DNA of 64,000 nucleotides from positions 3,641,501-3,705,500 of the forward strand of contig NZ_OW485601.1 of assembly GCF_937425535.1 (NCBI RefSeq), written 5' to 3'. Shown piece after piece: positions 37,485 through 40,523 of this stretch. How positions within the stretch are numbered: position 1 is the first letter of the stretch; each line of letters starts with the position of its first letter. The position numbers and the translations under genes are program-made. The notes beneath the pieces are model-generated. The model searched no databases. It had not been told where the DNA came from and worked only from the letters and a program-made list of their open reading frames with translations. This DNA comes from Rhodovastum atsumiense. GTDB lineage: Bacteria > Pseudomonadota > Alphaproteobacteria > Acetobacterales > Acetobacteraceae.

Positions 37485-38246
37485 ATGCCGCCCGCGCTGA
37501 TCTTCGATGTTGACGGCACGCTTGCCGAAACCGAGGAATTGCACCGTCAGGCATTCAACCAGACCTTCGCCGCGGCGGGATTGCCCTGGCACTGGGACCG
37601 CGCGCTCTATCGGCGGTTGCTCGCGGTCGCCGGCGGCAAGGAGCGGCTTGCCGCTTTCGTGGCGGCGCAGGCGCCGGAGCGCGCCGGGGAGGTGGACATC
37701 CCCGCCCTGCATGCGGCGAAGACCGCCCGCTACACGCAGATGATTGCCGCCGGCGCGGTGACGTTGCGCCCCGGCATCGCCCGCCTGCTGGCCGAGGCAC
37801 GGCAGGCCGGCGTTCCGGTCGCCATTGCCACCACCACCAGCCTGCCGAATGTCGAGGCGCTGTTGCGCGCGACGCTGGGCGAGGCGGGGCCCGGGGCCTT
37901 CGCGGTGATCGGGGCGGGCGATGTCGTTCCGGCCAAGAAGCCGGCCCCCGACATCTACGCCCATGTGCTGCGGCGACTGGCGATTCCGGCGTCCGCCTGC
38001 ATCGCCTTCGAGGATTCCACCATCGGGCTTGCGGCCGCGCGCGCGGCCGGCATTCCCACCGTCGTCACCCCCAGCCTATATACCGATGAGGACGACTTCA
38101 CTGGCGCGCTCGCCGTGGTGAGCGATCTTGGCGATCCGCAGGCCCCGTATCGTCACCTGGCCGGGGCGGGCGCCGGGGACGGCATGGTGACGATCGACAC
38201 CCTGGCGCGCTGGAGCGCCGCCGTGGAGGGTCGCCGCTCCCCTTGA
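37485..38246 (+). CDS. cbbY: HAD-family CbbY-like sugar phosphatase
   Basis: 253-aa HAD hydrolase. Motif I FDVDGTLAETEELHR (nucleophile Asp), motif II ATTTS, motif III Lys in PAKKPAPDIY and motif IV FEDSTIGLAAARAAG match CbbY. CbbY dephosphorylates xylulose-1,5-bisphosphate, a RuBisCO inhibitor. Its place next to cbbR and cbb genes supports the name. GGAGGAAACC precedes the ATG. The gene is intact although RuBisCO beside it is not. Confidence 0.88.
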   Translation: MPPALIFDVDGTLAETEELHRQAFNQTFAAAGLPWHWDRALYRRLLAVAGGKERLAAFVAAQAPERAGEVDIPALHAAKTARYTQMIAAGAVTLRPGIARLLAEARQAGVPVAIATTTSLPNVEALLRATLGEAGPGAFAVIGAGDVVPAKKPAPDIYAHVLRRLAIPASACIAFEDSTIGLAAARAAGIPTVVTPSLYTDEDDFTGALAVVSDLGDPQAPYRHLAGAGAGDGMVTIDTLARWSAAVEGRRSP

Positions 38247-38261: not shown

Positions 38262-39182
38262 TCAGTCGCGGCGCGCGGTCGGCCCGGCGGACCGGCCCGC
38301 GGCAACGCCCTGGAGGAAACCGAGGAACGCCCGCGCCACCCGCGGCAAGGTCTTGCCCTTCAGCCACACGGCGTTCCACCGCCGGCACAAGGAGAAGCCA
38401 TCGACATCCAGCACCACGAGGCAGCCGCAGGACAGCTCCAGTTCCATGCTGGCGAGCGGCAGCACCGACAGGCCGAGCCCCGCGATCACCGCCTGCTTGA
38501 TCGCCTCCGTGCTGCCGAGTTCCATGTAGGGGGCGATGGCCACGCCTTGCCCGGCCATGTGCTGGTCGAAGGCCGTGCGGGTTCCCGAACCGGCCTCGCG
38601 CACCAGCCAGCGTTCGCCGGCGATCAGTGCCGGCGGGATCGCCGGCATGCCGGCCAGCGGATGATCCGGATGGGCGGCAACGACAAGCCGGTTTTCCAGG
38701 AACGGGCATGTCTCGATCGCAAGATGGGTCGGCACCTGCCCCATGATGACGAAGTCGTCCTGGTTGTCGGCGAGCCGTTCGACCACGCGGGCGCGGTTGG
38801 TCACGATCAGCCGCGGCACCACCGCCTGATGCCCGGCGATGAACGCGCCCAGCAGGTGCGGAATGAAATACTTGGCGGTGGTCACCACGGACAGGCGCAG
38901 CGGCCCCTTCATGGTGTCGCCCAGCGCGTCGAGCGATTCCTCCAGCGCCTGCAGCCGGGCGAGGATATCGGCGCAGGCGGCATGCATCTCGTGCCCCGCC
39001 GGCGTGAGGAAGAAACGCCGCCCGATATGCTCGAACAGCTTGGCGCCGGCGTTCTCCTCCAGCCGCCGGAGCTGGATCGAAACCGCCTGCTGCGTGAGGT
39101 GAAGCTCCTCGGCGGCGCGGGTGAAATGGCGATGGCGTGCCACCGCCTCGAACAGTCGGAGTTGTTGCAGCGTCAGGTGCAC
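38262..39182 (-). CDS. cbbR: LysR-type CO2-fixation regulator CbbR
   Basis: 306-aa LTTR with HTH residues LRLFEAVARHRHFTRAAEEL and LTQQAVSIQLRRLE, and a LysR substrate domain. It is divergent from cbbL with a 130-bp shared intergenic region, the classical cbbR arrangement. It would normally activate the cbb operon in response to Calvin-cycle metabolites. The coding sequence shows no damage. Confidence 0.92.
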   Translation of the reverse strand: MHLTLQQLRLFEAVARHRHFTRAAEELHLTQQAVSIQLRRLEENAGAKLFEHIGRRFFLTPAGHEMHAACADILARLQALEESLDALGDTMKGPLRLSVVTTAKYFIPHLLGAFIAGHQAVVPRLIVTNRARVVERLADNQDDFVIMGQVPTHLAIETCPFLENRLVVAAHPDHPLAGMPAIPPALIAGERWLVREAGSGTRTAFDQHMAGQGVAIAPYMELGSTEAIKQAVIAGLGLSVLPLASMELELSCGCLVVLDVDGFSLCRRWNAVWLKGKTLPRVARAFLGFLQGVAAGRSAGPTARRD

Positions 39183-39216
39183 GGCAGGTCCATAAGCTTT
39201 TGTCTATCGTTACAAT

Positions 39217-39233
39217 TGAAACTATTAATTTCA
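39217..39233. promoter_or_regulatory. Candidate CbbR binding site
   Basis: Inverted repeat TGAAA-N7-TTTCA in the AT-rich cbbR-cbbL intergenic region, about 80 bp before the cbbL start and 35 bp before the cbbR start. The spacing fits an LTTR site. No other good inverted repeat is seen there. Confidence 0.45.
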
Positions 39234-39312
39234 GCTAATGCACGGGCCTTCCTGCCCTGCGCCTGCCTCGCCGGCATCGGGCCGGTGGGGTGGGGCTCGG
39301 GAGGGCAATGCC

Positions 39313-39819
39313 ATGCGCAAGATCTATCAGGCGGGTGTGCGGGAATACCGCGAGACCTATTGGGATCCGCACTACACGCCGAAGGACAGTGACGTCCTTG
39401 CCTGCTTCAAGGTGGTGCCGCAGCCAGGCGTTCCCCGCGAGGAAGCCGCCGCCGCGGGCTGTTCTTCGACCAGCCCTGGGGCCACATGGCCCCGGTTGAT
39501 GCCAGTCGCTTTGGGCGGCATCCATGTCTGGCACATGCCGGCCCTGCTTGCGATCTTCGGCGACGACGCGGTGCTGCAGTTCGGCGGCGGCACGCTCGGC
39601 CATCCATGGGGCAATGCCGCCGGCGCCGCGGCGAACCGCAGCGCGCTGGAAGCCTGCGTGCGAGCCCGCAACGAAGGGCGCGACGTCGAACGCGAGGGCA
39701 AGGACATCCTCACCGCCGCCGCGCAGGCAAGCCCCGAGCTGAAGATGGCGATGGAGACGTGGCGGGAAATCCGCTTCGAGTTCGACGTCGTCGACAAGCT
39801 GGATGCGCCGCATCGCTGA
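39313..39819 (+). pseudogene. cbbL: RuBisCO large subunit remnant with ~310-codon internal deletion
   Basis: Residues 1-48 match the form IA CbbL N-terminus ([20 protein letters not shown] to PREEAAAA). Residues 62-168 match the C-terminal ~110 residues ([20 protein letters not shown] to [11 protein letters not shown]). Everything between is gone, including the catalytic lysines, the carbamylated Lys and the metal ligands. The join falls in a GC repeat near 39448-39457. Just after it, bases in the next frame still encode [14 protein letters not shown], and an extra T near 39495 restores the frame. The result is an uninterrupted 168-codon ORF with a 13-residue frameshifted stretch. It cannot be active RuBisCO. 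Confidence 0.93.
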
Positions 39820-39863
39820 GCGGCCAGCCGGACCGACCATCGCAAGAAACACGAGGACGAATC

Positions 39864-40223
39864 ATGATCCCGATGAAGGACTATCCGTCGCGCCTGTCCG
39901 ACCCGAACAGCCGCAGGCTGGGCACCTTCTCCTACCTGCCGCCGCTCGATGCCGCGCAGCTGCGCCGGCAGGTCGCCTACATCGTCGGCCGCGGCTGGAC
40001 GCCCGCGATCGAGCACACCGACCCGGCACATGCCACCGGCCATTACCGGTACATGTGGAAACTGCCGATGTTCGGCGAGACCGATGTCGATCGGATCCTC
40101 GGCGAAATCGAGGCGTGCCGCGCGGCCAATCCGGGCCATCACCTCCGGCTGATCGGCTACGACAACATCGCCCAGTCCCAGGGCACCAGCATGGTGGTGC
40201 ATCGCGCCCCCATCCGCGCCTAG
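39864..40223 (+). CDS. cbbS: RuBisCO small subunit
   Basis: 119-aa small subunit of form IA RuBisCO, apparently full length: [43 protein letters not shown] and the conserved end [27 protein letters not shown] lies before ATG 39864. It is 44 bp after the broken cbbL. It has no large-subunit partner at this locus. Confidence 0.95.
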
Positions 40224-40307
40224 GTCAGCTCGGTACGCGGGCAGGCAGGATCGTCCCCCGGGCCGGATGGCCGCCGGCTGCCTGTCCATTTCCGGAGAGT
40301 CCGCATC

Positions 40308-40523
40308 ATGAACGACGTCGACAACACCGGGTACACTGTCTCCGCGCAGCCCTACTACCGCCCGGTCGGCAGCGAGATCGAGCTTTACACCGCCGCCTAC
40401 GCGGTGCGCATGCCGATGATGCTCAAGGGCCCGACCGGCTGCGGCAAGTCGCGCTTCGTCGAGTACATGGCCTGGAAGCTCGGCCGCCCGGTCAGGCGCA
40501 GCTGCGCCGCCGGGTCGGCCTGA
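40308..40523 (+). pseudogene. cbbQ: CbbQ RuBisCO-activase remnant (N-terminal 62 codons)
   Basis: The first 62 residues match CbbQ up to and beyond the Walker A motif GPTGCGKS (SAQPYYRPVGSEIELYTAAY to KLGRPV). After codon 62 (base 40493) the frame reads through unrelated codons to a stop at 40521-40523, because the DNA switches to an internal part of cbbO in another frame. Walker B and the sensor motifs of this MoxR-type AAA+ ATPase are lost, so the 71-aa product is not functional. Confidence 0.92.

Follow-up and report, generated by a model that had tools for sequence, protein, structure and literature searches.

Bacterial pseudogenes can arise by internal deletion. Previous work on Rhodospirillum centenum described a form IAq RuBisCO cluster that contains cbbR, cbbL, cbbS, cbbQ and cbbO (available text of PMC2890560), and an HK/R motif at the C terminus of the large subunit was reported for QO-linked RuBisCO in the accessible part of PMC4660213. 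In the present study, we analyzed a window of 64,000 nucleotides (the whole stretch of DNA under analysis) from Rhodovastum atsumiense, a purple bacterium of soil, and found the same gene set. As in R. centenum, which according to the same partial text of PMC2890560 carries a form IC operon in addition to its form IAq one, the genome also contains what appears to be a form IC operon. The cbbL gene of the window corresponds to a forward-strand ORF of 168 codons (39313-39819), with an ATG at 39313 and a stop codon at 39817-39819. Judging from its sequence, this ORF is very probably a pseudogene of cbbL, belonging to a second, form IAq cluster (cbbR-cbbL-cbbS-cbbQ-cbbO) that decayed in a genome with a redundant operon. 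Among the titles listed in a literature search, none dealt with the cbbL remnant, and it is not mentioned in the available text of PMC7005127, PMC9938234, PMC12542754, PMC10715153, PMC10892978, PMC2890560, PMC9164163, PMC12999727 and PMC4660213.

To describe the ORF, relatives were gathered with the C-terminal part of cbbL, and the best 80 of 545 confirmed loci were used; these included 71 full-length CbbL sequences, 8 that were cut by a contig end and 1 that was internally gapped. Pfam and the alignment indicated that the ORF is an out-of-frame fusion of CbbL residues 1-48 (RuBisCO_large_N, 1-48 of 120) and the C-terminal part of CbbL (RuBisCO_large, 204-299 of 299). According to the alignment with the 71 full-length form IA CbbL from these best 80 of 545 loci, the C-terminal part begins at the RG(I/L)FFDQ motif. 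The two sides were separated by 303 codons in all 12 relatives measured (from the best 80 of 545 loci), and four bases fit both sides of the junction (Table 1). By arithmetic, the deletion amounts to ~913 nt and is out of frame, with a net loss of ~304 codons. The 12 codons 3' of the junction are homologous to CbbL, but the ORF reads them in another frame; a +1 then restores the cbbL frame, and its placement is ambiguous, as the flanking codons likewise diverge from those of relatives. These results agreed with the initial annotation in the composition of the ORF, the out-of-frame junction and the loss of the form IA active site by internal deletion. Its figure of ~310 lost codons was revised, and the extra T to which it ascribed the restored frame proved to be a real +1, ~30-45 bp after the junction, which can be placed in several ways, the T being one of them.

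The catalytic residues of the form IA large subunit include the barrel lysines, loop 6 and the Ser of VASGGIH, the last of which binds a substrate phosphate. Nearly all of them lay in the lost region: the stretch with the barrel lysines and loop 6 is absent. In the surviving VASGGIH motif, Leu replaces the Ser that is found in 29/29 QO-linked relatives (from the best 80 of 545 loci). The ORF is also far shorter than a functional form IA large subunit, which has ~470 aa with the N domain and the whole barrel. Both pieces were 77-80% identical to the 15 best form IA relatives (from the best 80 of 545 loci), showing descent from form IA CbbL, and 53% identical to the other CbbL of the genome. The C terminus of the remnant is HR, and an HK/R ending was observed in 27/29 QO-linked relatives vs 9/42 others (from the best 80 of 545 loci).

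Around the remnant, the gene order is that of a form IAq cbbLSQO operon, namely cbbL, cbbS, cbbQ and cbbO with a divergent cbbR, which was 57% identical to a divergent LysR gene adjoining cbbL in another locus (L046). The cbbS gene starts 44 nt 3' of the ORF, consistent with the initial annotation, which had the ORF ending just before an intact cbbS. Neither cbbQ nor cbbO is complete: near 40490, codon 61 of cbbQ runs directly, and out of frame, into the final 353 codons of cbbO. The points flanking this second junction were 1900-2025 nt apart in six relatives compared and 1835 nt apart in L017. Relative to L068, 208 cbbQ codons and up to ~466 cbbO codons are missing, the latter being an upper bound since the relative's frame was taken from the upstream stop. 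The AAA_5 match of the cbbQ remnant scored 20.3 bits, just below the cut-off of 22, and this remnant was 69-81% identical to its ten best relatives (from the best 80 of 545 loci); the cbbO remnant was 67% identical to L068. The locus is marked as a form IAq cluster by its HR C terminus together with the MIDAS motif and the cbbQ/cbbO pair. NCBIfam gave no match for cbbS or the cbbO piece, no carboxysome protein was detected among 15 proteins scanned with Pfam, a tRNA scan of the window found none, and a promoter and terminator scan of 39100-40400, which was uninformative, found nothing. A 14-base perfect palindrome, GGCGCAGCTGCGCC, was seen by eye at 40495-40508, a few bases from the cbbQ/cbbO junction; L068 cbbO carries a similar GGCAGCTGC at the matching place, and the palindrome may be plain coding sequence. 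Near cbbR, a HAD-IA hydrolase is encoded at 37485-38246, for which family searches back the HAD superfamily only and which, by its position, we take to be CbbY-like.

Table 1. Features of the decayed RuBisCO cluster (positions in the window).
Feature	Position	Strand	Basis and remarks
cbbR, LysR-type regulator, open frame intact, 306 aa, divergent	38262..39182	-	Pfam HTH_1 + LysR_substrate
cbbL remnant, codons 1-48	39313..39456	+	Pfam, alignment
Junction of cbbL deletion	39453..39456	+	CGCG fits both sides; length by arithmetic
cbbL-homologous codons (12) read in another frame by the ORF	39453..39488	+	Alignment with relatives
Zone of frame-restoring +1	39488..39497	+	By eye; anywhere from ~39488 to ~39497, not unique
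cbbL remnant, C-terminal part in frame	39499..39819	+	Pfam, alignment; Ser-to-Leu in VASGGIH, HR end
cbbS, open frame intact, 119 aa	39864..40223	+	Pfam RuBisCO_small, 121.9 bits
cbbQ remnant, first 61 codons	40308..40490	+	AAA_5 2-28 of 139; frame continues to stop 40521-40523
Junction of second deletion, cbbQ/cbbO	40490..40493	+	1.8-2.0 kb lost, out of frame
cbbO remnant, last 353 codons	40493..41554	+	VWA in same frame; DLSES (MIDAS) motif

The constraint on the surviving pieces was evaluated on columns invariant in 29 QO-linked relatives (from the best 80 of 545 loci). The CbbL pieces broke 8/102 of these columns, including the Ser of VASGGIH, against a mean of 0.38 and a worst value of 5 among the relatives; the ambiguous +1 zone accounts for two of the eight, and without them the count is 6/100. 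CbbS broke 2/30 (worst relative 3), the CbbQ piece 0/19 (worst relative 1) and the CbbO piece 3/83 (worst relative 5). Thus, only CbbL fell outside the range of intact relatives, and the other three were within it. The pN/pS values against L068 were 0.22/0.49 (cbbS) and 0.22/0.48 (cbbO piece), and their shares of tree length were 0.073 vs 0.070, so that the conservation of cbbS does not exceed that of the dead cbbO piece. The GC3 of the pieces was 0.79-0.97, still coding-like (0.858 for the cbbL C-terminal part). Together with the few broken columns outside CbbL, this coding-like GC3 indicated that the decay is recent or slow.

The genome comprises 7,423,543 bases in 9 contigs, the largest share being C1 with 6,482,810 bases; the available text of PMC9938234 describes strain G2-11 as having one 6.48 Mb chromosome and eight plasmids in a hybrid Nanopore/Illumina assembly, and names RNA-seq data for the species (PRJNA818516). 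An earlier Illumina draft was reported in PMC7005127, in the available text of which RuBisCO is unmentioned. A PF00016 search of the genome (E 0.001) returned three places, namely an intact form I gene, the cbbL remnant and a RuBisCO-like protein. The intact gene, a second large-subunit gene of the kind that the initial annotation had suggested looking for, belongs to an operon at 3.40-3.41 Mb of C1 (L004:7945-17630), 275 kb from the remnant. Its CbbL has 505 aa and scored 793 bits (cut-off 438), CbbX 526 bits (cut-off 459), transketolase 834 bits (cut-off 682) and CbbS 132.6 bits; FBPase was slightly under the family cut-off (347 vs 358), and the names of the aldolase, epimerase, PRK-like and LysR frames come from reading only. 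The presence of cbbX and the distance from form IA, taken without a tree, suggest that this operon is of form IC (red type). With this intact form I cbbLSX operon, the genome has not lost RuBisCO. Lost autotrophy had been considered as a reading of the locus and was ruled out by this second, intact form I operon; Rhodovastum is listed among Acetobacteraceae with phototrophic autotrophy in the available text of PMC10715153. The RuBisCO-like protein (L005:8135-9235) best matched the 2,3-diketo-5-methylthiopentyl-1-phosphate enolase model, below its cut-off, and adjoins a putative sulfhydrylase-type pyridoxal enzyme (named by reading only). The missing parts of cbbL, cbbQ and cbbO were sought elsewhere in the genome and were not found; a CbbQ_C search of the genome gave one place, with a VWA gene ~1 kb away that is just 39% like the cbbO of the remnant.

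Among 299 genomes drawn from the family, 44 had a match to the CbbL C-terminal part. Matches of the form IA type (at least 77% identity) were found in 9/299, including R. atsumiense, and the other matches did not exceed 63%. The eight other form IA CbbL genes are all open frames of 481-515 aa, and two of these eight genomes (G173 and G045) have a CbbO at 51-52% identity, ~11 kb from cbbL. The initial annotation had suggested comparing sister strains for the ancestral gene and the extra T. In the six same-genus genomes, two of which are just 80 and 88% complete, no form IA CbbL match (0/6), no CbbO match at 1e-40 and no CbbS above 40% identity was found. A cbbS search gave matches in 6/40 relatives, the best outside R. 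atsumiense being 57% and from another family. The cbbO piece at 1e-60 matched 2/385 genomes in a class-wide search, R. atsumiense itself and one at 45% identity, so that no close source of this piece was found among the 385. In a tree of the joined pieces and 29 relatives (from the best 80 of 545 loci), the remnant grouped with L068, a bin labelled Rhodobacteraceae, with a support of 78, and its terminal branch was the longest for CbbL, CbbS and CbbO. The patchy distribution in the family suggests, and does not prove, arrival by horizontal transfer followed by decay. The internally gapped relative (L083:6520-7315) is a metagenome bin labelled Thiomargarita, in which residues 1-38 of a form IA CbbL are joined to residue 245 onwards; cbbQ and cbbO matches lie 3' of the gapped gene and the locus contains 100 N, and the gap is possibly an assembly error.

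For the restored frame, the initial annotation had offered two options, chance and selection for the +1 after the out-of-frame deletion, which would keep cbbS translated by relieving polarity. The latter draws on an open cbbS that Pfam recognizes and on a +1 that does lengthen the ORF, because a TGA at 39497 closes the neighbouring frame; the idea that the +1 is irrelevant to polarity, since the other frames are open anyway, was dropped owing to the same TGA. Against selection, cbbS has its own Shine-Dalgarno-like site (GAGGA at 39853-39857, by eye), the out-of-frame cbbQ/cbbO deletion was left uncorrected, cbbS shows no constraint above that of the cbbO piece, and CbbS no longer has a form IA large subunit to bind. 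Furthermore, the other two frames of the cbbL C-terminal part have open stretches exceeding 240 of ~363 nt in 45/71 and 20/71 intact genes (from the best 80 of 545 loci); long chance frames are therefore common in intact relatives. Two single indels of independent size would restore the frame in ~1 in 3 cases. These results fit chance, and polarity relief is unlikely.

An assembly that skipped two stretches of genes that are whole in the cell is highly improbable. One of the best 80 of 545 relatives, the bin L083, does have a similar internal cbbL gap, but the genome agrees with the hybrid Nanopore/Illumina assembly of PMC9938234 (available text). The direct repeats in 39200-40000, a scan that covers the first junction only, are at most 22 nt and too short to collapse long reads, and the two gaps, the +1 and the Ser-to-Leu change would all need to be errors or be explained apart. 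The ATG, the open frame and the intact cbbS and cbbR would also accord with a new role for the short CbbL together with cbbS and cbbR, such as regulating or modulating the other RuBisCO. However, the protein lacks most of the barrel, and its residues from about 49 to 60 are read out of frame. No short form IA gene occurs among the 8 others of the family, the sole other gapped gene among the best 80 of 545 loci (L083) is gapped elsewhere, and the number of broken CbbL columns exceeds that of every one of the 29 relatives (from the best 80 of 545 loci). The second large deletion makes a functional reading unlikely, and a new role has hardly any likelihood. The same low probability applies to its more specific form, in which the 168-residue fusion of the two ends of CbbL, maintained in frame and made with intact CbbS under its own cbbR, would be a small modulator that binds, for example, to small subunits or to subunits of the other RuBisCO.

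The open cbbS and cbbR and the restored cbbL frame count against decay. With its anatomy, its two gaps, the other operon and the patchy distribution observed directly, the cluster looks like ordinary gene decay. The cluster would have been acquired by horizontal transfer. Deletions, possibly at short GC-rich matches, took almost the whole cbbL active site (~0.9 kb) and joined cbbQ to cbbO out of frame (~1.9 kb); the +1 and the Ser-to-Leu change damaged cbbL further. Redundancy may have relaxed selection and allowed this decay: a further form I operon, which has an activase gene (cbbX) of its own, is still present in the genome. That the 168-codon frame stayed open is probably incidental, and the short protein would have no function. 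The cbbQ/cbbO deletion, the Ser-to-Leu change in VASGGIH and the intact RuBisCO operon were absent from the initial annotation.

Collectively, the locus clearly captures how one of two form I RuBisCO types is lost from a bacterium, and its decay does not imply lost CO2 fixation in R. atsumiense. It also calls for caution in surveys that score RuBisCO by cbbS or short CbbL matches, in which a non-working locus could be counted as form IA. Like pseudogenes formed by internal deletion, it has out-of-frame deletions, a change at an invariant residue and a genome that encodes the same activity in a further gene; unlike them, its cbbL remnant is brought back into frame by a +1. Atypical carboxysome loci likewise have incomplete sets of RuBisCO-linked genes and are argued by the authors to be selected variants (available text of PMC9164163), whereas the R. 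atsumiense genes are internally deleted, with no carboxysome protein among the 15 scanned. Compared with the R. centenum cluster, for which the available text of PMC2890560 describes no decay, cbbL and cbbQ/cbbO of R. atsumiense carry large deletions.
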